From assembly GCA_003024785.1 (NCBI GenBank), contig PUQB01000501.1:26001-90000 (forward strand): 64,000 nt of DNA, given 5' to 3'. Within the stretch, counting starts at the first letter, position 1. Each line of letters starts with the position of its first letter. Positions 10,050-48,700 of the stretch are shown here, one piece after another. The position numbers were made by a program, and so were the translations under genes. Source of the DNA: Selaginella tamariscina. Lineage: Eukaryota > Streptophyta > Lycopodiopsida > Selaginellales > Selaginellaceae. A model generated the notes under the pieces. That model saw nothing but the letters and a program-made list of their open reading frames with translations. It did no database searches and was not told the DNA's origin.

Positions 10050-10092
10050 GAGGAGATTCCAAGGGTTTGTTAAACAGGTTAGGACTGGAGAT

Positions 10093-10933
10093 ATGGCAGC
10101 GAAGGTCTTTACAGTATTTCTGCTTGCAGTGGCTCTCCTCTTTTCTACGTATGCTTATGCTCTGGTATGTATATGATATACAGTATATCTCTCTCTTTCT
10201 CTCTCTCTCTAAATTCCCTCTTCCTTTTCGTTTTTTCAGAATGTTGGCTTTGAAGAGGTGTGTACCACTCGGGATGAAGCCTACCTGTGGAAATGCCCGG
10301 CCCCTCTTTTGGTTAATTAAATCTCTTTTAATTCCTTTTTTCTTAAAATAACTTCCCTTCTTTTTCACAGACAGCAACAGAACCCACTCCCATAGTAATT
10401 AAAAACGTTGGCTTTGTTTTTATTCACAACTATAATCAGGGCGGTCATCTACATAACACACAGGTAATTACCCTTTCTTGCTTTGTTTTTTTTTTTTTTT
10501 TAATATAAATAAATATTGTACTATTACAACATTCCTGAGTTGTTATTTGTTATAGTTTTATTTCCCCTTTTCAGGTGAAGCATCATAATTGCTGTACCCT
10601 AAGCAATGCTTTCTGCTGGAAGTGCTACACCAAGGTGATGAACTGCGTGTGTGTGCGCGCGCGTTCTAACTTTAATTTTTACATATTTTATTTGGAGCTC
10701 AGGAGGATATTCAAAGCCTGACTGTGGACTTTGATAATGAGACTTCTAAGGTGTGTGTGTGAGAGAGAGAGTTTTAAAATATAAGATCTGACGTTTTATG
10801 TTTTCCAGGCAACGAAAACTTGCTGCACTGAGGACATGAAGCATTGCTGGGCATGCAAGGTACTCTAGTTATATTATATATACTTACACATTTCTAACAC
10901 TATTGTTTGGTTTTGCAGCAGGGAACTGCTTGA
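10093..10933 (+). CDS. Small secreted cysteine-rich peptide, seven phase-0 exons
   Basis: Splicing seven exons (10093-10164, 10240-10311, 10371-10463, 10575-10634, 10703-10750, 10809-10859, 10919-10933) gives an uninterrupted 136-residue protein ending at TGA. Every exon is a multiple of three and every junction is phase 0 with GT...AG. Exon 1 is a typical signal peptide (M-A-A-K, then a hydrophobic core, then A-Y-A). The mature part has ten cysteines, mostly in three related modules on separate exons: C-T-T-R-D-E-A-Y-L-W-K-C, C-C-T-L-S-N-A-F-C-W-K-C and C-C-T-E-D-M-K-H-C-W-A-C. The pattern is (C)CTx(6-8)WxC. I do not recognise the family. Secretion and disulfide bonding are inferred. A convergent paralogue lies at 12004-12749 and a duplicate at 34762-35571. 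Defence or signalling roles are possible but unproven. Confidence 0.8.
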
Positions 10934-11770
10934 ATCGCGAAGATGGACTTTGTTATTTTGTTTTTGATTTACTTTGAAATATTGTTGAAAATAATATCAC
11001 TGTTCAAAACTCGCTGGCGTGTGTGTTCTTAACAAAAGACTATCTATCCCTCTCTCTCTCTGCAACATCCATGAAGCAAAGTATGTTGCCAGTCCAGAAA
11101 TTTCCATCCTGGATTGCATGCTAACAGCATAATGTATAGAGTTATCCGATCTGCCCGAGAGAAACTGCAACGCTTTCACAATCCAGCCCTTTTATATTAC
11201 TGTTAATTAATTAAAATTTTAATTAAATTAAAAATTAAGAAAAAATGTATTTAAAGAAAACTTATATATACCCAATCATGTATATAGATCAAATGCATTA
11301 GCCGTGAACTTTTTTCTTTATTTATATCATGTGAATGTATATAAATTCATTAAAATCATTAACTTAATTAATTATTATTAAGGGAGGGCACACGCACGCA
11401 CGCACATGCACACACACGCGGGCACGCCCACGCACACAGAGATACACACTTGAGCATAGCCCATCATGCAGATCTCATCAGCTAAGGTTTTCTACCTGAG
11501 TTGCTAGGACTTTGATATTTTGCTTAGGTGTTTAATCCAATTATAAATTATGATGAACATGGTTTCTGTATATGCCAATACTACATTGTGTACATGTAAT
11601 GTACGTACATTGTATTTTACGTATATACTAAGCTATAAAAATAACATTCTTCAAGCTCTACGTATATATGTAATATAAATACGTACTAATTATCACAGAC
11701 AGAAACGTATGTACATATGTATATATATCTTGAGGGGGGGGGCGTGTTGAATATTTTGAATAAATGAGTT
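10934..11770. other. Intergenic region between convergent cysteine-rich genes
   Basis: Contains AT-rich DNA, a (GCAC)n-type low-complexity run near 11390-11440 and a G-run near 11735. No gene supported. The equivalent region after the duplicate gene is 35572-36040. Confidence 0.4.
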
Positions 11771-11844
11771 TATTGAAAGAAAAGAAAAAAATGAAAATGA
11801 AAACAAAATGAAATTATAAACATCTTAACATGCGCTTGATCTCT

Positions 11845-11995
11845 CCCAAGTTTCAGTATCTTCTCTTCTGTACACAAGTTAAACTTTAATACAATAAAGA
11901 TTAAGATAGAATACTCTAATACAAGCTTCAGTATCTTCTCCTCTGTACACACATTAAACTTTCTTTCAATACAATTAAGTGTAAGAAAATTTATA
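11845..11995 (-). repeat. Tandem relics resembling exon 6 of the cysteine-rich gene
   Basis: Two roughly 75-bp direct repeats (about 11849-11916 and 11924-11990) read on the minus strand as C-T-E-E-K-I-L-K-L. They resemble the start of exon 6 of the adjacent gene (C-C-T-E-D-K-R), including its GTACAGAGGA junction. They look like duplicated and decayed copies of that exon. One may supply the final exon of the minus-strand gene, but no clear stop-bearing exon could be chosen. Confidence 0.4.
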
Positions 11996-12003
11996 TATAA
12001 TAC

Positions 12004-12749
12004 CTTGCAAGCCCAGCAGCGCTTGTCCTCTGTACAACAATAATCCTGAAAAACACCATCGTATATATATAAACACCCACCCACTCACTCCCACACACAC
12101 AACCTCGGCAATTTCACTATCCATCTCCGTACTCAGGTTGCCAATGCCATTCTGTGTTAGAAAATAATTTGAGTACTACAAGTTAATAAACAGAGAGAGA
12201 AAGAGGGAACCTTTGGGTAGCAATTCCAGCAGTAAGCATTGTTTAAGGTGCAGCAGTCATGATGTTCTGTCTGCATGCATGGAAGTGTTTAGAACGAGCT
12301 TCTAAACATACTAATGAGAATGTGTGTGCATGTATTACACGCATGCACACACACACACATACATAATGTACCTTCATATTATGCACACCGCGGTTCTCAA
12401 CAAACGAAAGATACACATTCTTGATTGTAGCGGTAGACTTTGGTAGAACCTGTAAAATAAGGATAAAAACGATGAGAGAAATAAAGAATATGTGATAGTG
12501 ACGGAAAGGGAAATGACCTCAAGAGGCCCAGGACAATTCCAAAAGTACGCTCTATCTCGAGTGGAACATAGCTTCTCAAATCCATACTCCTGAAACAAAC
12601 ACAAGCTCGGTTATAAGTCAGATATATATATAACAGACACACACACACACATAGAGAGACAGAGAGATTACCCTTCCTGAACTTGTAGGAGCATGCAGAA
12701 AGAGGATCGTTGTTGTGAGCAAGAACAGAGTGGAGAACTTCAAAGCCAT
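12004..12749 (-). CDS. Small secreted cysteine-rich peptide, paralogue on the opposite strand (3' exon unresolved)
   Basis: Six exons on the minus strand mirror the gene at 10093-10933: 12749-12672 (signal peptide beginning M-A-L-K-F-S-T-L-F-L-L), 12589-12518, 12449-12372, 12270-12211, 12151-12104 and 12045-12004. All are multiples of three with phase-0 GT-AG junctions, 126 codons in total. Exon lengths match the paralogue at exons 2, 4 and 5 (72, 60, 48). The same modules recur: C-S-T-R-D-R-A-Y-F-W-N-C, C-C-T-L-N-N-A-Y-C-W-N-C, C-C-T-E-D-K-R-C-W-A-C. Only the cysteine/tryptophan frame and a few flanking residues are shared, so the paralogues are old. TATA-like TATATAAATA lies upstream on the minus strand (about 12791-12800). 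The terminal exon was not identified. Function unknown, presumably secreted. Confidence 0.75.
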
Positions 12750-13830: not shown

Positions 13831-13839
13831 ACTCTAATA
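13831..13839 (+). repeat. Target-site duplication of the MULE, left copy
   Basis: ACTCTAATA, repeated exactly at 21845-21853. Nine bases is the usual MULE duplication length. Confidence 0.85.
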
Positions 13840-13885
13840 GAGTGCCCGCCATTTTGGAGGCTTGGGGCCCAGGAGGCCTGGGCTC

Positions 13886-13922
13886 GAATATTCAAGAATA
13901 TTCTAGAATATTTTGAATATTC
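13886..13922. promoter_or_regulatory. Heat-shock-element-like array, left end of MULE
   Basis: Alternating GAA and TTC blocks start at 13886, 13891, 13896, 13901 and 13906: five modules at exact 5-bp steps, the canonical HSE geometry (nGAAnnTTCn). Another pair, one base out of phase, follows at 13915-13922. Copy 2 has the same array at 36461-36498, and the right end has another set at 21757-21786. Binding by heat-shock factor is inferred from the motif only. Confidence 0.6.
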
Positions 13923-14083
13923 TTTCTGGTCGGCAGTATTGGCCTCAGTCGGCAAAAAAGAATTCTATAAAACTGTTGTATTTCTATCTTATTTTTTTTA
14001 TATTAGCTTAATTTATTACTCAATATACATTAGCTAAAGTTTCTTCTTCATCTTAAGTAAAGCTGCAGTTCTCGAACCACCAG

Positions 14084-17000
14084 TTACGCTTGGACGTGGA
14101 GGTGTTTGAGTAGGTAATTCTCTGGTCTAATGTTCTCTGCGAGCTTGTTTGTTGCCAACCTAGAGAGTTCGAAACTCTTCTCGGTTCCTATAATATTCCT
14201 TCCGAGCTCGACGGCAGCTAACAATGATGACCCGGTTCCGGAACCAATATCCCAGACTAGGTCGCCAGGTCTACTGAGACGCTCGATCAAAAGCTGCATG
14301 AGTCGAACACTCTTCGGTTGAATCATCATCCTGCACAAACTTCCATTAGGATAAACAAAGCAAAGTACTTCCTTACCAAGCCTCCTGAAAACGGTCGGCG
14401 TGTCGACGAGGATCGTGTTCGTCAACGCCAGAGGGTTTGGCCTCTTCGACTTCTTCTCAGAGCTTTGCAGCACCAAGAGAACTAACAAGTTATCCTGCCA
14501 CATAGACCAAGTTAAACTTGAACTTGAATAGCTAGCTTACCTTAATTTTGTCACGGTATCCCCAGCCTCGTGCACGGTAGACGCTGTAAGTCCCTGCAAC
14601 CTCCAAGTTGATTACTGCAGCCGCCTGAATCACCCGAAACAGAAGGAGAACTCGCGAAGACGACCATGAAACCACTCGCTGCCAAGTGCATTCCACTGAA
14701 CTGCAAGGCCTCCTCCTCAAACTTCACCGGATCTAGCTGCACAATGTCCTTGTTGATGCTAGCACCTCCATATACAAGCTCATTGGGCAAGTCGAGGATG
14801 ATGAGGTTGAAGCCGTATTCACCTACCACTTCCTGGAACACCGTTTGTGACTCAACCGTATGTAGTCTGTCAACCTGTTGTCGGAGCTTGGTGTACACCT
14901 CTGTCTGGGAAGCACCCGGCTCGAAGAAAGACCTGCTCATCTCCTCCATATCGCACACAGCCAGGTCGTAGGATCCACGGGATGCAGCCAGGGTCGGGAT
15001 GAAGGTCATCAGGTCGTCCTTGATGTCCAAACTAGCTACAAGTGGCTGCACCTCATTGATTGTAAAGTCGATTGCCGGCGGAGGTGCTGTAGAAGAGCTT
15101 GGTCCCGCTCCCGATCCCTTTGCAGGTGTAGTTGTCTTCCGCACCGTCTTCTTCATCTTGCTCTTCTTGATAGCCTCTACTTCGTCCGGCTCCCAAACAA
15201 TCGCTGGTAGATCATTGCCTGCACGTCGAATAGTGAGCTCTCCCAAGCTGGTGGCTGTTGCGACGGACAGTCGAGCCAGAATGGAACATGCTCCCGTTCG
15301 AACGGTGTTAGAGCTCCTCTGCTCTTCGACCACATGTGAGGCTCGCTTGTATGATCTGTCCACAGCTTCATCGTCTGAGACGGTGCCATTTTCTTCGCCA
15401 GTATGAACCTGTAACACAAAGTCAGACAGTAGCAATGCTGGAATGAAAGCTTACCTCCCATATCATCCGACACGCAGACTCCTCACGCTCCAGAAACTCA
15501 TTCGGCTCCATCGAATAAGTGAACCGTATGCAGTCATGGAAGGGCTGAAAGACCAGGCACTTGCTCCGAGTTCGCATCTCGTCAAACCAGCTCATGAAGT
15601 CGACATCCGTTCCAACTTCTTCACCATCCTCTCGCAACCCCTTAAGGATCTGAATGGCTTCCTCGCGCACAGCCTTCCAATATAAGTCCAAGGTGAACCA
15701 CTTGATCCACTCTTTGTCCTGCATGCCTGGTAGCCCAAGTGTCTGTTGTTCTGCCTTGGATTCGAGACGGTGAGCTTGTTCAAGTATCGGAGTCGCAGCA
15801 TGTTTGAAATCTTCGCCTTTGACATCGCATACAGCTTCTCAATGCCCATCCAGCGACACTGCTTATGAGAGATGTTCGTCACCTTCTGGAACCACTCCTC
15901 CCCCAACTCTGGGTCTATGAGAGAGGAACTTGTGCATACGCTTGTCATGCTTCTTGTACACTAGCTGCTTCAGGTTCAGCTCAAGCTGTGGATTGCCTTA
16001 GCACTGGTGACTGCTCTGTCGAGATCATCGTCGATCTCGTTCTGCACATAGAATAAGTTAAAAACTTCTTTCCTATAAATCAAATCGGAGGTTACCTTGA
16101 AAAGGATCTTTGCGCAGATCAGGTTTGGAAGAGGATGCCAAGCCGTCTTTCCTGTTGAACTCTCCTTCCACTTCCGCACCTCAAGACGATCAACCTCCGT
16201 GAGTGACTCGAGGATTTTCTGAGTTCCTTCGGTACTAGTGCAGACCGCCTTTACAGCGAGGAGAATATGTGGTAGCGTTGTTTCCACAGATGTTGCTGAA
16301 GATCTGTTCAATGAAACTGTAAGTCTAGACCCTTAACAAAAAGAAAAGAAAATACTCACATGTTATCGATTGGAACATCGAAACCAGTTGAAGATTGTCG
16401 AGGTTCTCCGTGGAGATGAAACTCGATCGAACGCGAATAGCCCATCGCTGGTTGTCCTCTGCATCCTCCCGGTAGAGCTTCTGCAAAGCCTGTAGCCTAT
16501 GGTTCCCGTCCCAGCAGCTGAACTTCCGGTTTGAGAGCCTTGAAGCCCACTGTTTGTACTCCGGCTGAGTAAGAGCTTGCTCGAAAGACCGGTGCTGCTC
16601 GTACTGAATGTGTCCTTCGACAGCTCCGATAGCTCCTCAGCAGTGAGTCGATCTCCGATGGACAGAATGAACAAGGCCGTGTTGCGTAGATAACCAGCCT
16701 TCTTCAACGATGACACCAGCTGTCCAAGTCCCCTGGGTTCACTCGTCGAACCACCTCGTTCGAATGCATTCTACAGATGGGCACATCAGGAGGATCACCA
16801 AGTCCCTTGATAGTAATTTTGTCGAGCAGGTTCGCTGAGCTCTCCAAATGCAGGCTAGCCGGTATGCTGTATAACTCCTTCGGCTCCTTATCGCTCTTCG
16901 CCTTCTTGCCTTTTGGATCAGCTTTCCCGCGGCCTCTCTTTTTGCTGACTGCCTCCTCCAAGTCGTCCTCGCTAGCTTCAACTGCCTCTGTCATCTGCAC

Positions 17001-17252
17001 TTGCTCGTTCAGGACTGCAACCTCAGCGGATGAAGGAGGCAACTGCGACGAGCTCTCCGGGAAATCTGTGATGGTTGATGGAGGCTGCTCCTGCTCAACT
17101 GGTACTACTTCAGACTGAGTCACTGGAGGATCCTCCTTTGCTACATTAGATGGTTCTCCTCTCTTGCCTCGCTTGTGCTTCGATATCCTCTTCTCTTCCC
17201 GTGGCTCTTCATCAGGCGCAGTCTCTAGTAGACGTTTTGAAGCTCTCACCAT
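14084..17252 (-). CDS. ParB-like domain plus beta-class N4/N6 DNA methyltransferase-like protein (five exons)
   Basis: Start ATG at 17252; stop at 14084. Four short introns: 16359-16317, 16095-16042, 15454-15409 and 14540-14495 (43-54 nt). Exon 1 encodes a charged N-terminus rich in Lys/Arg/Glu (nuclear-signal-like K-K-R-G-R-G-K). It then encodes a ParB-like region: I-C-R-M-H-S-N-E-V-V-R-R-V-N, L-K-K-A-G-Y-L, and C-W-D-G-N-H-R-L-Q-A-L, equivalent to the ParB G-E-R-R-x-x-A loop. The middle section is unrecognised. The C-terminal part has N-L-I-I-L-D-L-P-N-E at the motif IV position and V-W-D-I-G-S-G-T-G-S-S (14214-14262) as AdoMet motif I. Catalytic motif first and AdoMet motif last is beta-class order. 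Motif IV is D-L-P-N rather than D-P-P-Y or S-P-P-W, so activity is uncertain. Frame changes near 16713, 16614, 15990, 15770 and 14640. It diverges from the transposase gene. Confidence 0.7.
14772..14812 (-). other. Putative catalytic motif IV of the methyltransferase-like protein
   Basis: Reads L-I-I-L-D-L-P-N-E-L-V-Y. A hydrophobic strand is followed by Asp and Pro, as in [DNS]PP[YFW], but the second Pro and the aromatic residue are replaced. The copy at about 37340-37375 has the same residues, so the change predates the split of the copies. Confidence 0.5.
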
Positions 17253-18489
17253 TTTGTAAACTCTGGAAAGCAAACACACAAGTCAATTGATTAGGAGACA
17301 AAATAAAAAAAAAATCAAAGATGACTAACCTTGTGGCTGCCGACTCAAGCTAGATGGTGCCGACCCTCTCAGTCGGCAAGAGATGTAGAAGAGCAATCCT
17401 GCCGACTGAGACAGTTGGTGCCGACCCTCTCAGACGGCACTGAAGAGATAATGGTGCCGACTGAGCTAGGATGGTGCCGTCCCTCTCAGACGGCACAAAT
17501 GGGAAGACCCATTAACTCTGAAAAAAAGAAATACTTGAGCCGCAAAGCAAAAAATAAACAAATTGAAAATACCTTGTGGCTGCCGACTGAACCAGGATGG
17601 TGCCGTCACTCTCAGTCGGCACAAATGGGAAGACCCTTTATCTCTGGGATTCCGACACAAATGGGAAGACCCATTAACTCTGAAAAAAAAAACATTGTGA
17701 TATGGATACTTGAGCCGCAAAGAAAAAAAATAAACAAATTGAAAATACCTTGTGGCTGCCGACTGAACCAGGATGGTGCCGTCACTCTCAGTCGGCACAA
17801 ATGGGAAGACCCTTTATCTCTGGGATTCGACACAAATGGGAAGACCCATTAACTCTGAAAAAAAAAACATTGTGATACGGATACTTGAGCCGCAAAGAAA
17901 AAATAAACAAATTGAAAATACCTTGTGGCTGCCGACTGAACCAGGATGGTGCCGTCCTCTCAGTCGGCACAAATGGAAGACCCTTTAATCTCTGAAAAAT
18001 AAATTATTTGAGCCGCAAATCATAAAATAAAGAAATTGCACATACCTTGTGGCCGCCGACTGAGCAGGATGGTGCGACAATCTAAATCGGCACAGAAATC
18101 TCGATTGATTTACTTGGGCGCTGCACGAATCGACTCGAAATGGATGGCGCCGCTCCTCTCAAGCCCCTTGGAGGAGATTTCAGAACTCAGATCTGAGATT
18201 GAAAAAACCCTAGCCGCAGTGGAAACAGTAAACCCTATCTACCAAAAAACCCTAGCCGCAATGAAAACAGTGAACCCTACGGAATAAATGTGACATTAAT
18301 ATTTAGGGTTAATATTAAAATATGTGAATAATTGGTAAAGGTGAAGATATTTCAAATCATAAAAGGTAGTAATTAAATTAAATCGGTGATACTAGAGAGG
18401 ACAGCATTAAGAACACTGTGAGCTGGGAGCGTAGAATTAATTATATACAAAAGTGTATTCACGTTTATTATCAACGATTATAATTTTTT
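17253..18489. promoter_or_regulatory. Bidirectional promoter region with ~170-bp tandem repeats rich in GCCGACTG/CAGTCGGC
   Basis: Five imperfect repeats, each starting near CCTTGTGGCTGCCGACTG, begin at about 17330, 17574, 17748, 17921 and 18042. Each holds GCCGACTG followed about 30 bp later by its inverse CAGTCGGC, then an ACAAATGGGAAGACCC phrase and an A-rich stretch. CAGTCGGC also occurs just inside both ends of the element (13941-13948 and 21729-21736). The region lies between the start codons of the two divergent genes. These are candidate binding sites for an element-encoded protein. 18180-18270 has CCCTAGCCGCA repeats. No gene seen here. Confidence 0.65.
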
Positions 18490-21400
18490 TTGGCGAACGA
18501 GAGTGTGTTTAATCTTTTGCTTTGCTTTCCTAAACCACCGAGCTTTCTCCTTGCGTTGTCATGGCCAGATGAAGGCATTGACAAAGATTTCCCAGTCGAT
18601 GAAGATGGAAATGCTTTTGTGTTTGAACATGATCTTCACTTTGCTTTCAACATTCCTTGTTGGTTCAGTATACATGTGGTTCAATTGATGTCAGTTTCTG
18701 CGAGTTCTGGAGAAGATGTGGAGTTGTTACCAGAAGGCAATGCATCAAACCAGTTTGTCTTTTACACATTGTGCCCGGCAAAGGGCCGTTGTTCAGGTTG
18801 CGGACAAAGGAGCGTGAGGAATCCATGCTGGTGTGTCTTCTAAGAGCAGACAAATGTAGGATAGGGAAGGATCTCATTGGTTCGTCTGAAGTTAAACGAG
18901 TCTCTGTACCGCAGATATACAATGGAAATGTCATTTACGAACTTCCCCAAAGAAAGAAAGCACAGAGAAGTACTTGGGGATGAATCGCAAGGATGGCTGC
19001 TACCATTGGACACACCCGAGCACAACACACTGGCATGTTCCGGCGAGTCAGTCGAAGTTCATGTGTCGGACATCTCAAATGCATCAATCCTACCTGCCCC
19101 TACTTGGCTTTTGAGAAGAAAGCAAATGAATGTCACTTCAAGGGTGCTGTGGAGAAGGCAAAGACAACTGAGACAGGCAAAGTAATAGGCATGAAATGTA
19201 AGCATTGTGGAGAGGAGCCATTGCTAGTGCACACTTGTCCGGCTTATGTGTACTACATTCTGCCAGACGACATTTCTTTTACAAGGTTGTTCATTCACAG
19301 AGGTGTTCATCAGCATCCAGTCAGCCCCTCAGTGTCAGCTTCAAACGTTCAGTGCCAGATCTAGTGTCAGCAACGTGGTAAAGAGCAGTCCGAACCAATC
19401 AACGAGTGATTGAGTTTCAAGCTGCGTGAGCTCATCTTTGAAGAACTTTTCAAGGAAGAAGGAGAAGTCTCGTACACTGGTTTACTCTCAAAACTTGAAC
19501 CTCTAACAAACCATCGAAGGTATTTTTCTTTAGATCTCTACACACTGACGTGACCTTTCCTTTAGGACTCGGGACTGGATTACACAATCAAGACAGAAGG
19601 AGACACACTTTAGAGAGGGTTACGAGGGTCTTCTGGAGCTGAAGACAAAGTTGCCAATACCTTTCATTCACGTCATACATGTTCCAGGGATGGAACTGCA
19701 TGGTGCTGAGGAGCAGCCTCTGATCTTCAAAATGACAGTTGAGGGACCGGGTTCAGGAGTTGACTACATCAGAAGGTGTCAAAGTGGAGGAGACCTTCAT
19801 GATCAATGGGTTGTTCTGGACCACACGCACCGTATACCAGACTGGGCGACAATTGGAATACACCTTTATGACCCATTGTAAGTTGTAGAACTCTTCATAA
19901 CACTTTCTAATCTTTGTTATCTAATGCTCTCTTACAGTGTCAGATCCATGGTGACTATAGCTTACGCAGATATGTGCCGCGAAGATAATGTTGCAGTGCT
20001 GAAGTTCTTGAACACAATGCTAGAGGTTTGTAAGCAGGGTTTGGAGAATGTCAACTTTGCTGGTTTCATGTCGGATGAGGCTGGAGCGATATGGATAGCC
20101 TTGCGCCAAGTATTCAACAACGGAGAAAAGATGAAAGGGAGGGAAAGAAGCTGTCTGTTTCACTTTATGCAATCCGTGCGTCAGGTGACAAAGAAATGGA
20201 TCGCAGAAGAACATCGCGAAGAACACATGAAGCTTGCTCGTGCCTGGCCTGCAGCACTGAATGAACAATCTAAGAAAGAACAACTAGCAATTCTCGAGTC
20301 TTTTTGGGAAGGACGAGCGTCAAACATTCGAGCTTTGAAGACATGGCTGTCTTGGGGATCAGGCATGAGGACCACATCTCCTGGCGGAACTGGGAGACAT
20401 GACAGAAAAGGACTCGCGAGCGTTCCAACTACAAACAATGCTGAAGTGATTCATGCGAGAGCAAGAAGAGCAAGATTGGCCAAAAGAGTACCACTGCTGG
20501 AGGCGACAATGTTAGACCTCACCGATGCAGTTATGCAAGTGTGAAGGTGAAACGGCAATAGAAGGGAGGTATACAGGGTCAGGTCCTTCGAAAGGAAACT
20601 CTGTTGAAACGAGTGCAACACAAACTCTCTGAGGGGAAAAGTGTATCTCCATCAACAATTATCAATCTGGTGGAAGGCGAGGAACACTTGACCAGCCCGG
20701 AGTTCACGAGTACCACTAACGTTCGAGTGCAAACTGTTAGGAGAACAGTCACAGGAACAGAACAGTCTGATGCTCGACGTTCACACAGACATGATGTAGA
20801 GTACACAGAGCGGGTGGTCCAAAACAACAGGAGAAAGAGGTTAAGGTTCAAGAGGTTTTGGAGAGAGAGATTGCTCAAACAGAGTGGGCCATCAGACGAA
20901 TCGGAGCATCCAGTAAGGTTAAGTGTTTGGGGATGAATCAGGAAGGAACTGCTCTGTGTGGAAAACCAATCGGTTATCCAAGCAGAGTGCCAGCACCAGG
21001 ATTCTATGGAAAACGAATGTACAGTGATGCCTTGGGGAATGAGGAGTATGTACAACAGATGATGTGGTTCTGCCCAAAAGATTCAGGGTGTTTCATGCGG
21101 CCAAACGGCAAAATTCTTCAGTCACGAATTCCAACACCACCAACGGTTTGGCCTGTGCTCAAGGAAACGAAGCTGACAAGTGAGGAGGTCAAAGAACTAC
21201 AGGATGCAGGCTTTGTTCTGGAAGGTTTACAGGGACGGCAGGAAGAGTAGATGAGGGTCAGAAGGACAAAACACCATCGCCACCACGTGGAGCTGGATCT
21301 ACAACAATTCCACCTTTCGAAGGACGTATGGTCCGGACTCCAACAAAAATGTCTAAGGAACAAGAGAAGAATTTCCACAAGGCCAAGACGTTTTTAGGTC

Positions 21401-21726
21401 GTGTGAGAAATGTTGAAGTGACAGTTAGAGGACGGAAGGAGGCTTTCGTTGTGTCGGCAGGAAATGACTCTGCAAAGGTGACTATTAGTACTTATCCTAC
21501 ATGCAGTTGTTCTACCTTTCAGAAGAGCAAAAGTTGGAGCCCATGTGTACACATGTACTTCGTCTACAGCCGTGTGCTTGGCTTGAACCCGGACATCACA
21601 TATTTTCTACAAAGGCGATCACTCAGTGAGATGGAGGTCCACCGTTTGCTGGTGAATTGCAGCAGAGTTCATGACCCACCGTGCTACAAGGATAAATGGT
21701 TTAGGGTTAGGATAATGCTTTATTAA
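18490..21726 (+). CDS. MULE-type transposase with zinc-binding N-terminus and SWIM finger (frameshifted)
   Basis: Two short introns, 19520-19565 (46 nt) and 19878-19937 (60 nt), join the main frames. The N-terminal part has a cysteine/histidine-rich DNA-binding-like region: H-L-K-C-I-N-P-T-C-P-Y-L, M-K-C-K-H-C-G-E, H-T-C-P-A-Y and H-Q-H-P, about 19068-19320. The RNase-H-like core follows, with V-V-L-D-H-T-H-R (first Asp), G-F-M-S-D-E-A-G-A (second Asp), C-L-F-H-F (MULE CxxH) and T-T-N-N-A-E-V-I-H (catalytic Glu). A linker with four cysteines is next, then the SWIM finger C-S-C...C-V-H (21505-21555). Frame changes near 18830, 18950, 19350, 20545 and 21250. The true start codon is uncertain; the first in-frame ATG is at 18688. 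Role: element excision and insertion in the nucleus. Confidence 0.8.
19520..19565 (+). other. Transposase intron 1 (46 nt)
   Basis: GTATTTTTC...TTTAG. Its removal continues the frame ...N-H-R-R-T-R-D-W-I. The same intron is at about 40332-40374 in copy 2. Confidence 0.7.
19878..19937 (+). other. Transposase intron 2 (60 nt)
   Basis: GTAAGTTGT...CTTACAG between Y-D-P and F-V-R-S-M-V. The intron is retained in copy 2 (about 40683-40742). Confidence 0.8.
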
Positions 21727-21756
21727 GCCAGTCGGCATATTAAAAAAACTTATATA

Positions 21757-21786
21757 TTCTAGAATATTCTTGAGAATATTCTAGAA
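21757..21786. promoter_or_regulatory. Heat-shock-element-like array, right end of MULE
   Basis: TTC-GAA-TTC at 21757-21769 and GAA-TTC-GAA at 21774-21786, each at 5-bp steps. Partial GAATAT phrases continue to about 21820. Confidence 0.5.
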
Positions 21787-21844
21787 TATACCTGGAATAT
21801 CTGCGAATATACTAGAATAATATGCCTCCTTTTCGCCGAGACCC

Positions 21845-21853
21845 ACTCTAATA
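21845..21853 (+). repeat. Target-site duplication of the MULE, right copy
   Basis: ACTCTAATA, identical to 13831-13839. Confidence 0.85.
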
Positions 21854-33465: not shown

Positions 33466-33470
33466 ATTTA

Positions 33471-34445: not shown

Positions 34446-34488
<43 letters not shown>

Positions 34489-34720: not shown

Positions 34721-34761
34721 AGGAGATCCTAAGGGTTTGTTAAACAATTAGGATTGGAGAT

Positions 34762-36415: not shown

Positions 36416-36460
36416 GAGTGTTGCCATTTTGGAGGCTTGGGTCCCAGGAGGCCTGGGCTC

Positions 36461-36498
36461 GAATATTCTAGAATATTCTAGAATATTTTAGAATATTC
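36461..36498. promoter_or_regulatory. Heat-shock-element-like array, left end of MULE copy 2
   Basis: Eight GAA/TTC modules at exact 5-bp steps from 36461 to 36498, with a single mismatch (TTT at 36486-36488). More regular than in copy 1. Confidence 0.6.
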
Positions 36499-36649
36499 TT
36501 TTTGGTAGCAGTATTGGCCTCAGTCGGCAAAACAATTCTAGTAAAACTGTTGTATTTCTACCTTATTCTTTTTTATATTAGCTTAATTTATTACTCAATA
36601 CACATTAGTTAAAGTTTCTTCTTAAGTAAAGCTGCAGTTCTTGAACCAC

Positions 36650-38470
36650 CAGCTAGGCTTGGACGTGGAGGTGTCTGAGTAGGTATTTCCTTAGTCTAAT
36701 GTTCTCTGCGAGCTTGTTTGTTGCCAACCTAGAGAGTTCGAACTCTTCTTTTCCTATAATATTCCTTCCGAGCTCGACAGCTAACAACGATGATCCGGTT
36801 CCAGAACCAATATCCCAGACTAGGTCATCAGGTCTACTGAGACGCTCTATCAAAAGCTGCATGAGTCGAACACTCTTCGGTTGAATCATCATCCTGCACA
36901 AACTTCCATTAGGATAAACAAAGTAAAGTACTTCCTTACCAAGCCTCCTGAAACGATCGGCAGTGTCACGAGGATCGTGTTCATCAACCCAGAGGGTTTG
37001 GCCTCTTCGACTTCTTCTCATAGCTTTGCAGCACCAAGAGAACCAACAAGTTGTCCTACCACATAGACCAAGTTAAACTTGAACTTGAATAGCTAGCTTG
37101 CTAGCTTACCTTAATTTTGTCACGGTATCCCCAGCCTCGTGCACGGTAGACGCTGTAAGTCCTACAACCTCCAAGCTGATTACTGCAGCCGCCTGAATCA
37201 CCGCCGAAACAGAAGGAGAACTTGCAAAGATGACCATGAAACCACTCGTTGCCAAGTGCATTCCACTAACTGCAAGGCCTCCTCAAACTTCACCGGATCT
37301 AGCTGCACAATGTCCTTGTTGATGCTAGCCACCTCCATATACAAGCTCATTGGGCAAGTCGAGGATGATGAGGTTGAAGCCGTATTCACCTACCACTTTC
37401 TGAACACCGTTTGTGACTCAGCCGTATGTAGTTGTCAACCTGTTGTCGGAGCTTGGTGTACACTCTGTTGGGAAGCACCCGGCTCGAAGAAAGACCTGCT
37501 CATCTCCTCCATATCGCACACAGCCAGGTCGTAGGATCCACAGGATGTAGCCAGTGTCGGGATGAAGGTCATCAGGTCGTCCTTGATGTCCAAACCAGCT
37601 ACAAGTGGCTGCACCTCATTGATTGTAAAGTCGATTGCCGGCGAGAGGTTGTAGAAGAGCTTGGTCCCGCTCCCGATCCCTTTGCAGGTGTAGTTGTCTT
37701 CCGCACCGTCTTCTTCATCTTGCTCTTCTTGATAGCCTCTACTACATCCGGCTCCCAAACAATCGCTAGACGAGATCATTGCTATGCATGTCGAACAGGA
37801 CCTCTCCCAAGCTGGTGGCTGTTGTGACAGACAGTCGAGCCAGAATGGAACATGCTCCCATTCGAATGGTGTTAGAGCTCCTCTGCTCTTTGACCACATG
37901 TGAGGCTCTTGTATGATCTGTCACAGCTTCATCATCTGAGACGGTGCCATTTTCTTCACCAGTATGAACCTGTAACACAAAGTTAGTCAGTAGCAATGCT
38001 GGAATGAAAGCTTACCTCCATATCATCTGACACGCAGACTCCTCATGCTCCAGAAACTCATTCGGCTCCATCGAATAAGTGAACCGTATGCAGTCATGGA
38101 AGGGCTGAAAGACCAGGCACTTGCTCCGAGTTCGCATCTTGTCAAATCAACTCATGAAGTCGACATCCGTTCCAACTTCTTCACCATCCTCTCGCAATCC
38201 CTTAAGGATCTTAATGGCTTCCTCGCACACAACCTTCCAATATAAGTCCAAGGTGAACCACTTGATCCACTCTTTGTCCTGCATGCCTGGTAGCCCAAGT
38301 GTCTGTTGTTCTGCCTTGGATTCGAGATGAGTGAGCTTGTTCAAGTATCGGAGTCGCAGCATGTTTGAAATTTTCGCCTTTGACATCGCGTACAACTTCT
38401 CAATGCCCATCCAGTGACACTGCTTATGAGAGATGTTCGTCACCTTCTGGAACCTCCTCCCCAACTTTGG
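36650..38470 (-). pseudogene. Methyltransferase-like gene of MULE copy 2, ParB-like half deleted
   Basis: Corresponds to 14084 to about 15905 of copy 1. Keeps the AdoMet motif (V-W-D-I-G-S-G-T-G-S-S, about 36780-36830), the D-L-P-N-E motif and the middle section up to E-E-W-F-Q-K-V. At about 38470 the sequence jumps to the promoter repeats, so exons 1-2 with start codon, charged region and ParB-like region are absent. Extra single-base frame changes throughout. Probably non-functional. Confidence 0.75.
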
Positions 38471-38479
38471 GCTGAAATA

Positions 38480-39000
38480 AACAAATTAAAAATACCTTGT
38501 GGCGCCGACTGAACCAGGATGGTGCCGTCACTCTCAGTCAGCACAAATGGGAAGAACCTTAATCGACACAAATGGAAGACCCATTAACTCTAAAAAAAAA
38601 AAACATTGTGATATGGATACTTGAGCCGCAAATCATAAAATAAAGAAATTGAAAATACCTTGTGGCTGCCAACTGAGCAGGAAGGCCGTCACTCTTAATC
38701 GGCACAAATGGGAAGACCCTTTATCTCTGGGATTCCGACACAAATGGGAAGACCCATTAACTCTAAAAAAAAAACATTGTGATACGGATACTTGAGCCGC
38801 AAAGCAAAAAATAAACAAATTGAAAATACCTTGTGGCTGCCGACTGAACCAGGATGGTGCCGTCTCTCTCACACGGCACAAATTCTAAGACCCTTTAATT
38901 CTCAAAAATAAATTATTTGAGCTGCAAATCATAAAATAAGAAATTGCACATACATTGTGGCCACCGACTAAGCAGGATGGTGTCGACAATCTAAATTGAC
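38480..39000. repeat. Promoter tandem repeats of MULE copy 2
   Basis: Four repeats beginning near 38499, 38659, 38829 and 38949, matching 17330-18060. Several of the GCCGACTG/CAGTCGGC pairs have decayed. Confidence 0.65.
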
Positions 39001-39360
39001 ACAACAAAATCTCGATTGATTTACTTGGGCGCTGCACGACGACTCGAAATGGATGGCGCCGCTCCTCTCAAGCCCCTTGGAGGAGATTTCAGATATCAAA
39101 TCTGAGATTAAAAAAACCCTAACCACAGTGGAAACAGTAAACCCTATCTACTAGTGAACCCTACGGAATAAATGTAACATTGATATTCAGGGTTAATATT
39201 AAAATATGTGTATTGGTAAGGTGAAGATATTTCAAATCATAAAAGGTAATAATTAAATTAAATCGGTGATACTAGAGAGGATAGCATTAAGAACACTGTG
39301 AGCTGGGCAGCGTAGAATAATTATATACAAAAGTGTATTCACGTTTATTATCAACGATTA

Positions 39361-42173
39361 TAATTTTTTTTGGGAACGAGAGTGTGTTTAATCTTTGCTT
39401 TGCTTTCCTAAACCACCGAGCTTTCTCCTTGCGTTGTCATGGCCAGAGTTACTATAAAGCATTGACAAAGATTTCCCAGCTTGTGTACATGTGGTTCAAT
39501 TGATGTCAGTTTCTGCGAGTTCTGGAGAAGATGTGGAGTTGTTACCAGAAGGCAATGCATAAAACCAGTTTGTCTTTTACACATTGTTGCCCGGCTAAGG
39601 GACGTTGTTCAGGTTGCGGACAAGGAGTGAGGAATCCATGCTGGTGTGTCTTCTAAGTGCAGACAATGTAGGATAGTGAAGGATCTCATTGGTTCGTCTG
39701 AAGTTAAACGAGTCTCTAAACTACCACATAATACAATGGAAATGTCATTTACGAACTTCCTCCAAAGAAAGAAAGCACAGAGAAGTACTTGGGATGAATG
39801 CAAGGATGGTTGCTACCATTGGACACACCCGAGCCAAACACACTGGCATGTTCCGGTGCGAGTTAGTCGAAGTTCTGTTCAGACATCTCAAATGCATCAA
39901 TCCTACCTGCCCCTACTTGGCTTTTGAGAAAAAAGCAAATGAATGTCACTTTAACGGTGTTGTGGAGAAGGCAAAGACAACTGAGACAGGACAAAGTAAT
40001 AGGCATTAAATGTAAGCATTGTGGAGAGGAGCCATTGCAGTGCACACTGTCTGGCTATGTGTACTACTCGTGCCAGACGACATTTCTTTTACAAGTTCAT
40101 TCACAGAGGTGTCATCAGCATCTAGTCAGCCCCTTAGTGTCAGCTTCAAACGTTCAACGTGCCAGATCTAGTGTCAGCAACGTGGTAAAGAGTAGTTCGC
40201 AAACCAATTAATGATGATTGAGTTTCAAGCTACACGTGAGAGCTCATCTTTGAAGAACTTTTCAAGGAAGAAGGAGAAGTCTCGTACACTGGTTTAACTC
40301 TCAAACTTGAACCTTTAACAAACCATCGAAGGTATTTTTCTTTAGATCTCTACACACTGACGACCTTTCTTTAGGACTCGGGACTGGATTACACAATCAA
40401 GACAGAAGGAGACACACTTTAGAGAGGGTTACGAGGGTCTTCTGGAGCTGAAGACAAAGTTGCCAATACCTTTCATTCACGTCATACATGTTCCAGATGG
40501 AACTGCATGGTGCTGAGGAAGCAACCTCTGATCTTCAAAATGACAGTTGAGGGACCGGGTTCAGAGTTGACTACATCAGAAGGTGTCAAAGTGGAGGAGA
40601 CCTTCATGATCAATGGGTTGTTTGGACCACACGCACGTATACCAGACTGGGTGACAATTGGAATACACCTTTATGACCCATTGTAAGTTGTAGAACTCTT
40701 CATAACACTTTCTAATCTTTGTTATCTAATGCTCTCTTACAGTGTCAGATCCATGGTGACTATAGCTTACGCAGATATGTGCCGCAAGATAATGTTGCAG
40801 TGCTGAAGTTCTTGAACACAATGCTAGAGGTTTGTAAGAAACAGGGTTTGGAGAATGTCAACTTTGCTGGTTTCATGTCGGATGAGGCTGGAGCGATATG
40901 GATAGCCTTGCGCCAAGTATTCAACAACGGAGAAAAGATGAAAGGGAGGGAAAGAAGCTGTCTGTTTCACTTTATGCAATCCTGTGCGTCAGGTGACAAA
41001 GAAATGATCGCAAAGAACATCAAAAGAACACATGAAGCTTGCTCGTGCCTGGCCTGCAACACTGAATGAACAATCTAAGAAAGAACAACTAGCAATTCTC
41101 GAGTCTTTTGGGAAGGACGAGCGTCAAACATTCGAGCTTTGAAGACATGGCTGTCTTGGTGGATCAGGCATGAGGACCACATCTCCATGACGGAACTGGG
41201 AGACATGACAGAAGAAGGACTCGCGAGCGTTCCAACTACAAACAATGCTGAAGTGATTCACGCGAGAGCAAGAAGAGCAAGATTGGCCAAAAGAGTACCA
41301 CTACTGGAGGCGACAATGTTAGACCTCACCGATGCAGTTATGTAGAGTGCGAAGGTGAAAGAGGCAATAGAAGGGAGGTATACAGGGTCAGGTCCTTCGA
41401 AGGAAACTCTGTTGAAACGAGTGCAACGCAAACACTCTGAGGGGTGTATCTCCATCAACAATTATCAATCTGGTGGAAGATGAGGAACACTTGACCAGCC
41501 CGGAGTTCACAAGTACCACTAACGTTCGAGTGCAAACTGTTAGGAGAACAGTCACAGGAACAAAACAGTCTGATGCTCGACGTTCACACAGACATGATGT
41601 AGAGTACACAGAGCGGTGGTCCAAAACAACAGGAGAAAGACGTTAAGGTTCGAAGAGGTTTTGGAGAGAGAGATTGCAACAAATAGAGTGGGCCATCAGA
41701 CGAATTGGAGCATCCAGTAAGGTTAAGTGTTTGGGATGAATCAGGAAGGAACTGCTCTGTGTGGAAAACCAATCGGTTATCCAAGCAGAGTGCCAACAAG
41801 ATTGTATGGAAAACGAATGTACAGATGCCTTGGGGAATGAGGAGTATGTACAACAGATGATGTGGTTCTGCCCAAAAGATTCAGGGTGTTTCACGCGGCC
41901 AAACGGCAAAATTCTTCAGTCACGAATTCCAACACCACCAACGGTTTGGCCTGTGCTTAAGGAAACGAAGCTGACAAGTGAGGAGGTCAGAGAACTACAG
42001 GATGCAGGCTTTGTTCTGGAAGGTTTACAAGGGACGGCAGGAAGAGTAGATGAGGTTCAGAAGGACAAAACACCATCGCCACCACATGGAGCTGGATCTA
42101 CAACAATTCCACATTTCGAAGGACGTATGGTCCGGACTTCAACAAAAATGTCTGAGGAACAAGAGAAGAATTT
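39361..42173 (+). pseudogene. Transposase gene of MULE copy 2, 3' truncated
   Basis: Matches 18480-21370 of copy 1. The zinc region, both introns, G-F-M-S-D-E-A-G-A and T-T-N-N-A-E-V-I-H are present, with a shortened N-terminus and many single-base frame changes. The sequence stops at E-Q-E-K-N, before the SWIM finger, where another element is inserted. Confidence 0.75.
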
Positions 42174-42760: not shown

Positions 42761-42764
42761 GGAT

Positions 42765-45700
42765 TTAACATTTATAAACATGCTGGGTCTTTTGATTGGG
42801 AGACCATGTTTTCTCTAGGCATCCATTATATCTTTCGCTCTCCTTCTCGTGTCGCCTTTTTTGTGGTTTGAACCATGCAACCTTAACAATACTAGTTTTT
42901 GTGATTACTTCAGGTGTGTCGATAATTTGACCCATCCAAATAGGCTGATTATATGACGCATCTGGAGTAATGAGAACCATCATTAGTTTTTGAAGATCCT
43001 GGCAGCAATCAAAGTATGCTTTAGGTTTTTGGTTCCTTTGTCCAACAAAGTGTGGGGTTTGCACTTCCACATCACTACTGGCTTCTATGTCATATGTGCT
43101 CAGTGATGTCATTTCAATCTCCTCTCGCCACCTTGATTTAGGCCAAAAAAGGTGTTGCAATTGTACTTGTGACAGTAGACCTTCCAACTCTCGAACAACA
43201 GTCTCCCAATAGTTAACCACATGCTTATATAGTTCTGAGTAACCAGTTGCCTTATCAGAATTCTTTGGCATCGATTTTTGAACCCATGCCACATATTTTT
43301 TGATGCCATCAATAATAACCTCTTGTTCCTTGAGCTGGGCACTCAATGGAATAGGGTCTGTTTGTCTTCTGGGAGAAGTGGCTTTCCATTCTCTCCACTT
43401 TTGAAGAGCATTAACCCTCTTTCGGTAACCACTCCTGCTCTGATGGCCGTAACTTGTACTGCATAATAGGTATAACATCTCGTATGGAGAAAAAGATTGT
43501 AGCGGCACAAGGTGACCAACTAAAGAATCACTCCCCTCTTTTATATACTCTTTGAGAAATTTTTGAAGTCTGGCACCTCAGTCACAAGCAAAGCACAACT
43601 TTTTTTGAAGATGCAATTTTCAAAAAGATTCATCATATGCGGTAAGGTAAGTGCACTTGTCCTTTTTGTAGAGTTGGAGACCTTGCTGAAGAACGCATCA
43701 ATATCTTCATAAGTGTGACCAACCATAAGAAAACTGAGCGTGATTGTTTCAAACACACCTTTGGCAACAAGCATTGACAAGTATGCTAGCACATATCTAG
43801 AAAATAAAAGTAAGTATGAGCTTGAGAAACCCTTAAGTAAAATGATTTACCTATTTTGTTCTCGCCTGCACAATTATCCATTTGTAAAAGCAAATGACGA
43901 GGAAGCTTATTTGATGTTGAGGACACATGTACACTATTTGAACTAGATCCCTCCACTGAACCTGAACTCTCAACAGGGCCATCTGTTTTTTGTGCAGGTT
44001 GTTCACAATGCCTCTTATTCCAAGTAGCCTCAAGTGCAGACGTGTTCATGAGAGCATTATGTAAATGTTGAAGGTGTTGTTTCTTCACTTTGAGATCACC
44101 GATAGGACTTGTCTGTGAGTGGGCTTCAAGGTTTCTGAAACACATGGCCAACGACCCAATAGTGAAATTGGAGTCGCTAGACCAATGTGGAAGTGAAAAG
44201 TGTCCATATGATTCACAACCATGTCCATGTGTTAGCACACCTGTCAATGAAATCGGAAGTTTCATGACATTTCCAAGGCACTTTGGTGTTGCAACGAGCT
44301 TTGGAATGCTGGTCTTTGAATGATCCATCTTGTCATGGATCAAGCACAGGTACTCTGATGGGTATGACACAAAAGCATGCGGTGTGCATAGTACTGAGAC
44401 CGGCAAGTTTGTTGCGCAATCATGTGGGCCTCCATCTTCTTTTGAATGGCATGTACAAGTGTCACACTTGGAAAAGCTAGAGTGTTTGCAATCTCCACAT
44501 CCTTAAAATGAGTATTCCATATGTTGTTGAAGGTACCAGTGCAGATTGCTTGCAGCCCCATCAAGCTAAGGCACTTGTTCACATGTTCACACAACTTCAA
44601 TTGAGTGTAGATCGAAGGCAAAACCTTGAGATTTTCCCTGACCCCTGCATTTGTGGTTCGGCATTTGTGAGGCATCCTGTCTGCATTTGCTTCCATAAAA
44701 GCCTTGAGTATCTGTCATAGTTTTTACTATGACTCAACCCTTTACTTTGGGGTTTGACTGTTGTTACCTACCGAGTTGTGTGACGAACCCTAGATGTAGT
44801 AGGAAACAGGCCCACTTAGTGCACTTGGGTATCTGGTGATGGTCCGGCCGGGTGTCATTAGGTATTTGCAGGAAACTCTAGGTGAAGCTAGAACTTACCT
44901 TCTAGAAACTCTCCCCCGGTTTGACGTGGTTTTCCGTTAAATATAGCTTGTCAAAAAGGGTTAGGGACACCCCTAGGGTTGACCTAACCCTAGGGTTGCC
45001 CTAACCCCACGCCCTAATACCCCCCCCTAGGGGTTAGGTTTAGGGTTAGGTTAGGACAACCATTTTCTCTAAGGGCTGGCATTTCCGTGCCAGCCCACTT
45101 ACTCATTTAGGTAAACAGGGGGGGGGGGGTCCGTCACATAAATAAGGTAGAGTATATGTAGTGAGGCTTCCTGGGTTCAAAAGAGAGCTCGTTAACCTCC
45201 TACCGGTGCAAGCTAAGCTTGTGTCGTCAAGGTGCAACCCTCTGTTGCCGCCCAAACTTCCACACGACAGGGGTACAACCCACCCTAGGGTTAGACTATC
45301 CTTATCGTTGGCAGGATCTTGCCTTTGAGACAAGGGCACGTCACTTCCAAGGAGTTAGCCAGATTCCTTGGTCCGAAAACCTGCTCGCAAGCTCAAAGGT
45401 ATTGCCCGAGTTCACGTTCCGCAGAACTAGTGGTTGAGGCCTTGCTCCGGCCGCCTCAACCACGCCAAGCTAGGAACACACCTAAACTCGGCTAGTCCGT
45501 GTATCCTGATTCACAAGGTGAGTCTCGTTCGTGGACTTGTCAGTTAGGGTTTAGTTCCTAAGGCTTGGGTTCCTAATACGGGTTACTTTACCAGATTCCG
45601 TGGGGTTTCCAGAGAGGGGATTCCAGGGTTGGCACCTGGCAAGCCGCCTTTGTGGCACCAGGTAAAAACTCTGACAATTGGTATCGGAGCAAGTTCTCTG

Positions 45701-48700
45701 CGGTCAGTAGGACTGCCTTAAGTTATAGGGTGTTTCAATGTTTAGATAACTCTAAATTCTTGTTATACTCTATTGCTTTCGGTTGACATGTCTGTATTCT
45801 GCGCAGAGAGTTTGATCCTGTGAGTTGTCAAACTTCGGAGAACACTTGCTCAGTGAGTCGGCGTGAGATTCTAGGTATGTCCGAAAGTCTTATGCTAGTT
45901 TAAGCTGATGTGTGTGGGTGTACAACCTGTGCAGGGTGTTTCCAGTTTCACATTGGGAATATTCCAAGCATATTCTCCGAGTGTTGACACTAGGGTTCAA
46001 TACGATGAGCAAGAGAAAGCAACCAGAGCCTGAGGCAGAGAGGGCTGTCGCAGAGGCTCAAAATGAGGAGATGGATGAGGCTGATCCAGGTCGACCCCCT
46101 AGGGTTAGACAACGACCTGGTTGGCGAGAAATAATGATGGATGCCCTAAATGAACTTCGAGGGGATGTTCTGGGGTTGAACGACCGAATCGATAATGTTG
46201 CCGTTCGGATTCCAACGAATACAGCAGTGCCGATGTTCCGCAACCAGACACACGGAAAAGAAGAAGAAGCATGACTCAGAGTCAGGTTCCTCTGAATCAG
46301 ATTCTTCGACGGAAGTAGTTGGTGGAGGTCCCAGTAAATTCAAACCGGTAAAGCCTTCGAATTTCATGGGTTCAAAGGATTACAAGGTTTTGGATGACTG
46401 GTTGTATGATATGGAAAGCTATTTCGAGGCTGCTTCCGTGAGAAAGACAGAAAAGGTTGCATGTGCCAAGCAGTTTCTTAAAGAAGAAGCTAAGACTTGG
46501 TGGCGAATTGTTGAAGGTGAACGTGGATACCGAAACAGCTGGAAGCACATGAAAAAGGAGATCAAAAAGCAGTATATGCCGGATGATCTCGGTTTGCGAT
46601 TGCGTGCTGACCTGGCACTTTGTCAACAGGGTTCGGGGAAGTCCAATGGACCACGTTTATCGATTCGAAAGTGTACGGCGATTGGTGCCAAATATGAGCG
46701 ATGATGAAGCTCGAAGTTGCTTCATGGCTAGCTTGAATGAGAAAACGCGAAGGGAGATCTTAAGGTACAAGCCCACAAGCTATCGGGAATGTCAAGAGGC
46801 AGCTCAAAAGGTTGCTTATGGCATGTCGTTAGAAGACTTGTACAAAGGGGAGGAAGCAAAACCTAAATCGAGGAGGTTTTCTCCAAAGTCTGGGTTTAGA
46901 AGGTTTGATGGAAGACCAACTCATCACCATCGAAACGAAGTGCAAGTCCCTTTGTCGTAGTTCCAAGTTTTCGGACACATCAAGACCCACCGGATTTCGG
47001 AAACCATTGGCGTTACCACCTCCTCAGCAGACCAAAGGATCGGCTCCAAAGTCTGCTCCCCCGTTCTCAGGCGGGGTCGTGAAATGTTATAATTGTAACA
47101 AGCCTGGTCATTTTGCTAAAGAGTGTCCGGCACCCTCACAACAATCAGGACATTTCAAGGCGATGGTAGAAGAGGAAGTTGCTGAACCAGAAACGCTTGA
47201 AGATCCGGAAGATGAGTCAGAAGAGGTAATGTTGTGCCAGACACAACCTGCCTTATTCGCTATTCAAGACAAAACTGACCCTTTGCTATATTTGACAGGA
47301 AGGATACGAGGGGACCGAGTCCGAATGATGATCGATACTGGAGCAACATACAACTTCATATCGACTAGTCTAGCTCGTCGATTGAATTTGGATGTAATAA
47401 AGATGTGTGAAATAAAGATCAATTTTGGCAAAGGTTCTCAAAATACTAATAATATAGCAAGGGCAGTTCCTGTCCAAATCAAAGATTGGAAGGCTAAGCT
47501 AGACTTAGTTGTCTTGAATATGACGGGGTTTGACTTTGTTCTGGGTATGGAATGGTTCCATAAACATGTAATCGAAATGAGGGGTTCCGGAGATAATCGA
47601 ATCACGCTTGCAGCAGATAAAGAAGCCATTAGAAAAACGACGCTCAGAATGGAAACGCTAACTGATAAGGATTGGAATCCTATGTTCCTTACCTTGACTC
47701 AGTTGCGTAAAGCAGTTAGACATCGGGAACGTGTGTTTCTTGCAATGGTTTTGGATACTGGTGAAGTCAAAATAGGAGATGGTCAAGAACATGTTCCCGA
47801 ACCTATTTTGGAAGTCTTGAACATGTTTAGGGATGTGTTACCGAAGATTTGCCGCCTGAGTTACCTCCACGTCGAGCTGTGGACCACAGAATAGAGGTTT
47901 TGCCGGGTTCGTCTCCACCGGCAAGAGCCCCATATCGGTTAAATCCTCAAGAGTTGATTGAATTGAAGAGACAGCTGACGGAATTGGTTGGTCGAGGACA
48001 CATTCGACCTAGTCGATCACCATATGGTGCACCGATCTTGTTTGTAATGAAAAAGGATGGTACGATGCGAATGTGTGTGGACTATCGAGCACTGAACGCG
48101 ATAACTATCAAAAAAGTATCCTCTTCCGCGAGTGGACGACTTGTTTGATAGACTATCAAAAGCAAAGTACTTTTCAAGAATAGACTTGAGGTCTGGACCA
48201 TCAGATTCGGGTAGCAGAGAATGACATTGAGAAGACCGCTTTTCGAACGCGTTATGGATCATTTGAGTTTCTAGTCTTGCCATTCGGGTTGTGCAATGCT
48301 CCAGCAACTTTTTGCACAATGATGGATGATGTGTTTAGAGACTATCTAGACGAGTTCGTGTGGTGTATATTGATGACATTCTGATTTTCAGTTCGACAAT
48401 TGAAGAACATGTGGAACACTTAGAAAAAGTGTTTCAGAGGTTGAGAGAGAACCAGTTGTATGCTAAAGAAAGCAAGTGCGCATTTGGTCAAACCAAGATA
48501 GATTTCTTGGGACACTTGATCTCAGGTGGGGAGGTTGCCATGGACCCAAAGAAAATTCAAGCTATTACTGAGTGGATGACTTAAAAGACGTGCATGAAGT
48601 TAGATCATTTCTTGGTCTGACAGGGTATTACCGAAGATTCATAAAGGGTTACTCGAAATAGCGGCCCCATTGACAGATCTTACGAAGAACATTCCATGGC

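Follow-up and report, generated by a model that had tools for sequence, protein, structure and literature searches.

A 64,000-nucleotide stretch of the Selaginella tamariscina genome (contig PUQB01000501.1, positions 26,001 to 90,000; the whole stretch is referred to here as the window) raises the question of whether a plant transposon encodes a protein that joins a ParB-like region to a DNA amino-methyltransferase, and what such a protein might do for the element. A sequence-only reading had placed a gene of this kind at 14084..17252, within a Mutator-like element (MULE). We find the gene at this location, with its limits corrected to about 14034–17252, in an element that we describe as MULE-like (Table 1). 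We interpret it as the second gene in a MULE-like transposon that has amplified recently and, judging from sequence, see an even chance that its product docks through its ParB-like part on CAGTCGGCA words and acts through its methyltransferase part on element DNA.

The sequence comparisons support assignment of the C-terminal half as an N4/N6-type amino-methyltransferase of beta order, much as had been proposed. The translated segment at 14087–14536 of the window (reverse strand) matches N6_N4_Mtase (PF01555) at 38.4 bits, against a curated cut-off of 26.7, whilst PHROG DNA methyltransferases match the C-terminal half with E-values down to 9e-11, and the PDB matches of the region include MboIIA, DpnA and CcrM at 1e-4 to 6e-4. 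In a profile comparison with 11 phage enzymes, the S-adenosylmethionine (SAM)-binding half scored 92.7 (P 1e-13), with swapped controls at 12.4 and 11.6. The methyltransferase matches cover the SAM-binding part, and the motif IV part was matched weakly. DLPN, at the position of motif IV, precedes DIGSGTG (motif I), which is the beta-class order. The catalytic motif of N6_N4_Mtase proteins is (D/N/S)PP(Y/F); in both families of the element described below, and in all copies for which translations were read, it is DLPN and not DPPY.

For the N-terminal part the designation ParB-like is supported, not proven, by sequence. It carries a box I (PICRxxxNExVRRVNPxDLxxLxxSxKKAGYLRNT) and a GNHR box, with an insert of ~50 residues between them. 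Against a profile built from 14 phage ParB domains, box I from exon 1 of a sister copy of the element (L044) scored 29.9 (P 2.3e-4, hhalign probability 45%). None of 60 shuffles exceeded 16.3, and the scores of two other exons were 8.9 and 13.6. CWDGNHR aligns in register with ParB box II (GHxR), at a score within the range of shuffles, and the library searches gave at best ddrB-ParB for one piece, at an E-value of 0.16.

The reading frame of the gene is broken several times in the window copy, and the gene structure was taken from L044, where a splice model yields six exons and one open frame of 992 codons. The introns anticipated by the sequence-only reading are present in this model, as five predicted GT-AG introns of 46–56 nt that restore the open frame. 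The last part of the gene, which can also be read as one long exon, is modelled as two exons separated by a 46-nt intron. The exon limits of the window copy were transferred by hand from the L044 model via identical splice sites. Between the consensuses of two subfamilies of copies we counted 25 synonymous changes over 670 sites and 22 non-synonymous changes over 2306 sites, giving a ratio of non-synonymous to synonymous rates (dN/dS) of 0.26 (one-sided p 4.7e-6; 20 rows, one retrieved copy left out). At the level of these consensuses, the substitutions show a protein kept by selection between the two subfamilies. Protein database searches returned no match within limits for a 979-aa read-through (7991 candidates scored) or for the 357-aa C-terminal part (6597 candidates scored), and scans of viral contigs and one scan of prokaryote genomes gave no confirmed relative.

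The gene lies within a transposon that has short, imperfect terminal inverted repeats (GAGTGCCCGCC... on the left and GGGTCTCGGCG... on the right); these are ~20 bp, where the MULE criterion used for comparison is long terminal inverted repeats. A target site duplication (TSD), ACTCTAATA, directly abuts both element ends, and its length in the window copy (9 bp) falls within the 8–11 bp of Mutator-like elements. The joined element flanks align near 45.69 kb on the reverse strand of the same window, at a place that has no insertion and carries a single diverged version of the 9-bp target, GCTCCGATA. The flanking duplication and this uninserted paralogous site show the insertion to be real and precise. 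Thus, the description of the locus as a target-duplication-bounded element holds, and the view that it is not contamination is backed by the empty site and by the genome copy number. Within the element, the ParB-like/methyltransferase gene (reverse strand) and the transposase gene (forward strand) are divergent, with a repeat array between them.

MULE transposases have the signature D..D..CxxH..E plus SWIM. The transposase encoded here contains the stretches DHTH, MSDEAG, CLFH and NNAEVIH and a SWIM-like stretch, the last of which scored 18.1 bits, under the cut-off of 19.6. Among 5.8 billion proteins we found two distant relatives of the transposase core, one with an E-value of 2.3e-19 (39% identity over 34%) and the other with 3e-3 (28% over 40%). 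The second D, the CxxH and the E are invariant in the three-sequence alignment, which does not include the first D. A run of T in the transposase gene was found in 17 of 22 rows inspected, with a length of 4 in five rows and 5 in twelve; in L040, L042, L044, L045 and window copy 2, the run of 4 shifts the transposase frame. The shorter run may reflect homopolymer error or mobilization in trans, and some copies, L044 included, may be without an intact transposase.

The element is by no means confined to this locus. We searched 300.7 Mb in 1391 contigs, and a 900-base piece of the gene was found in the window and at 39 further places at 97–99% identity (best 40 of 548 candidates). The ParB-like exon occurs at a minimum of 150 places (best 150 of 1550 candidates), 75 of which tie at the top score, all identical over 174 residues, and in a genome scan with PF01555 the best 150 of 739 candidates were all above the cut-off. 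As read from this assembly, the transposon is very abundant and recently active or amplified. Twenty copies were retrieved for comparison with the window copy. Nine form a young subgroup with a mean divergence of 0.2%, whilst the mean is 1.2% for the remaining copies together with the window copy, and the between-group difference is 1.9% (L031 left out). In a TSD scan that allowed offsets of up to 3 bases and was run without a chance control, seven of the 20 showed an exact 9-bp end duplication and two a duplication with one mismatch in nine; ten had no convincing duplication (in four of these the right end was unrecovered) and one had no right-end sequence.

Intact reading frames are infrequent among these copies: the first three long reading blocks are open in two of the 20, and six have an open ParB block with 309 or more residues. 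In the older subgroup, near-private deletions (private, or common to at most one other copy) outnumber private substitutions in eight of 11 rows (window copy 9 to 2; L032 11 to 0), with the opposite balance in L029, L030 and L035 (deletions to substitutions 10 to 13, 13 to 32 and 6 to 13). Between the long terminal repeats (LTRs) of a young Gypsy element in the window there are 9 indels of 1–2 bp as against 4 substitutions; for other repeat pairs of the window the ratio is lower, at 0.23 to 0.85 indels per mismatch. Given the deletion excess and the LTR pair, we doubt that the frameshifts represent decay, real as this may be in some copies, and those of the window copy are probably for the most part assembly errors. 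More generally, near-identical repeats in the window and among the element copies show many deletions of 1–2 bases, which suggests assembly errors, and gene calls in repeat regions of this genome need caution.

Six PF01555 loci for which translations were inspected fell into two families. The second, represented by one region (L069), has the same plan: a ParB-methyltransferase gene, a repeat array and a divergent transposase. As L069 repeats the gene order, the link between gene and transposase holds in both families examined, and relatives beside a MULE-like transposase, which the sequence-only reading had asked for, do exist. The proteins of the two families are 49–51% identical in translated pieces; when the family 2 protein was joined by eye from two copies, aligned identity was 55% overall, 58% in the ParB part and 61% in the methyltransferase part. 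The two families share GNHR, DLPN and DIGSGTGSS without change, and transposase pieces are 34–85% identical.

The arrays of the two families are unlike in unit length and sequence but have in common an inverted word, CAGTCGGCA; apart from CAGTCGGC and AGTCGGCA, which each occur at least 10 times, no 8-mer has more than two occurrences in both arrays. The window element contains 12 words, 10 in the array and one near each end, and its truncated copy contains two; none lies elsewhere in the window. Eight of the 10 array words form four inverted pairs, 32–33 bp apart. Word placement is the same in three other copies (L030, L044 and L045), and array length differs among copies. In family 2, the palindrome CAGTCGGCATGCCGACTG occurs 11 times, ~39 bp apart, along with one inverted pair 32 bp apart. 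The array of CAGTCGGCA words is a candidate parS-like docking site for the ParB-like part, and common descent of two arrays that kept a word could account for what they share.

Under the reading proposed at the outset, the inverted CAGTCGGCA words in the intergenic array and close to the element ends would serve as docking sites of the ParB-like part, and the methyltransferase part would act on the element's own DNA, by methylation or, if DLPN is inactive, by SAM-dependent binding. As a result, the divergent promoters might be kept active, or the ends brought together for the transposase. A more specific form, which we offer as tentative and would not expect to hold, is a transposon-borne parS-like system in which a clamp on the inverted array (CAGTCGGCATGCCGACTG in family 2, CAGTCGGCA pairs in family 1) is combined with a DLPN methyltransferase that marks only element copies.

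A number of results weigh against docking and methylation by a MULE protein. Catalysis is doubtful, since the second proline and the aromatic residue of the PF01555 catalytic motif are missing from DLPN, and it is a weak alignment (P 0.63) that sets DLPN opposite DPPY. Methylation itself is therefore uncertain, and the roles suggested by the sequence-only reading (marking or protecting element DNA, or mimicking host methylation) are conjectural. The CWDGNHR box scored at shuffle level (16.7 vs 17.6 for shuffles); the hhalign probability for the ParB-like part ranged from 31 to 75% across comparisons; searches of Pfam, NCBIfam and PDB sequences with the joined domain gave no ParB match; and a single-sequence AlphaFold model of half of the domain was uninformative, with a predicted local distance difference test (pLDDT) value of 43. 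In the ParB region of the sequence-only reading, box I is significant, and the GNHR box is in register without being significant. The MULE profile PF10551 matched neither the transposase pieces nor their 405-aa joined core (E up to 5), nor was there a match in the two distant relatives (E up to 1). Because PF10551 is unmatched, we term the element, with its 9-bp TSDs, MULE-like and not a proven MULE. With regard to the shared word, 200 letter shuffles of one array gave at most two shared 8-mers, but this control breaks the repeat structure, in which one word shared by chance would recur as often as the unit itself. By a hand estimate, made for a word picked post hoc and before the inverted arrangement and the end copies were counted, a chance 9-mer in common is expected in about 1 of 25 pairs of such units. 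The word could equally be a transposase site or a promoter element.

These points give rise to alternatives. The protein might have lost methylation activity and serve as a SAM-binding DNA clamp or reader, in an architectural or regulatory role, as its motif I is intact, yet DLPN replaces DPPY in both families; we consider this doubtful, given that the entire methyltransferase region is conserved (61% between families) and that active enzymes with an unusual motif IV are possible. Transposases commonly bind near element ends, and the words are found not only in the array but also close to both ends. They might therefore be binding sites of the transposase, while the ParB-methyltransferase has another place of action, perhaps in anti-silencing of the kind reported for vanC of the Arabidopsis Hiun MULE (PMC6446971); we regard this as unlikely, for 10 of the 12 words lie in the middle array between the genes. 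A gene fragment captured from a host or bacterium in the manner of Pack-MULEs, functionless for the element, is already disfavoured and very improbable. It is common for MULEs to acquire additional reading frames (PMC6446971), and the two window copies show no third-position bias (mismatches at codon positions 1/2/3 of 18/28/29 and 13/19/19), but such a fragment is at odds with the dN/dS of 0.26 (p 4.7e-6), with the six-exon open gene, and with the presence of the same gene at the same place in the second family.

A ParB-methyltransferase on a transposon is already known from algae (PMC12477816), and what is new here is the MULE-like, DLPN, word-array form. In that account, Sola1-1_Ec32 of Ectocarpus carries a ParB-methyltransferase accessory protein, and green and red algal cases are cited (Iyer 2011, Petroll 2025). 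Compared by description, the Sola1-1_Ec32 protein resembles ours in its ParB-like and N4/N6 methyltransferase parts, its length (~1000 aa) and its location on the strand opposite to the transposase; likewise, the gene predicted here encodes a ParB-like and N4-methylcytosine (4mC)/N6-methyladenine (6mA)-type methyltransferase antisense to the transposase. Sola1-1_Ec32, however, is a 21.5-kb Sola1 element of a brown alga, whereas the present one is an 8-kb MULE-like element with a 9-bp TSD, set apart also by its high copy number, two families, DLPN and word array. The passages on the algal accessory proteins give neither a binding site nor a selection test; the present system offers a young family in many copies, with a gene that can be read and is under purifying selection, another family for comparison and one shared candidate word, making directly testable whether, and why, transposons write 4mC or 6mA on themselves.

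Other known systems share individual features. ParB-N6_N4_Mtase fusions occur in phages (PMC12704722), and those compared (Javan117, Javan95, T280 and Mel-JY34) have the same order of ParB and then methyltransferase domain. They are, however, 388–431 aa with DPPY, as opposed to 992 aa, introns, a long middle region and DLPN. MULEs with a second gene (mudrB, vanC and mutB; PMC6446971) are similar in their 9-bp TSD, SWIM-type transposase and extra gene; that survey uses neither 'methyltransferase' nor 'methylase' in its main text. Retrotransposons with C5 DNA methyltransferases (PMC5890265) are alike in that the element bears a DNA methyltransferase, but the enzymes are of the C5 type, the elements are retrotransposons, and 'ParB' does not appear in the text. 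A weak match (E 0.039 and 0.55) indicates amino-methyltransferase likeness to a eukaryotic DNA cytosine-N4 methyltransferase, PDB 8s9m. This enzyme is of bdelloid origin and is not known to have a ParB part. Among the literature matches listed (titles and abstract starts, with few subscription papers), no further one dealt with a ParB-methyltransferase carried by a eukaryotic transposon.

Table 1. Features of the transposon and related sites, in window coordinates
Feature	Position	Strand	Basis
Transposon, 8005 bp	13840..21844	.	Terminal repeats, TSD
9-bp TSD, left copy, ACTCTAATA	13831..13839	.	Flank comparison, empty site
9-bp TSD, right copy	21845..21853	.	Flank comparison, empty site
Paralogous empty site, LTR-leader junction of Gypsy element	45600..45800	-	Alignment of joined flanks
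ParB-like/methyltransferase gene, frameshifted in window copy	14034..17252	-	L044 splice model, sites carried over
Exons, window copy, approximate	17252-16360, 16303-16096, 16041-15455, 15408-14541, 14494-14377, 14330-14034	-	
ParB-like region, limits approximate	16360..16886	-	Profile comparisons
Amino-methyltransferase region, limits approximate	14034..14900	-	Profile and PDB matches
DLPN (place of motif IV)	14782-14793	-	Read from sequence
DIGSGTG (motif I)	14231-14251	-	Read from sequence
Intergenic repeat array, 10 AGTCGGCA words	17306..18094	.	Word count
AGTCGGCA word near left end	13947..13954	+	Word count
AGTCGGCA word near right end	21730..21737	+	Word count
MULE-like transposase gene, end approximate, frameshifted here	18561..21726	+	Motifs, profile scans, relatives
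Second element copy, other site, without ParB exon and right end	36416..42173	.	Flank comparison

The second element copy adjoins a segmental duplication (2770–12157 vs 25879–36419 of the window, at an offset of ~23–25 kb). It was ruled out as a mere part of this duplication, its left flank being a different site, and it probably inserted independently, although with the right end missing no TSD could be shown. Its broken right end is adjoined by another, protein-coding element that is present in two copies (42174–44713 plus 52056–54152, and 59340–63995; 95% identity in the first part and 89% in the second). The former of these is split by a young Gypsy-type LTR retrotransposon (44713–52056, LTRs at 44713–45676 and 51091–52056) with a C terminus that looks chromodomain-like by eye. 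Scans of the window against Rfam and for tRNAs (bacterial code) gave no match. Short ORFs near 12.2–12.8 kb resemble, again by eye, secreted cysteine-rich peptides, and tandem repeats with units of ~110 bp at 32417–32944 and 58091–58741 lie close to retroelement-like coding stretches.
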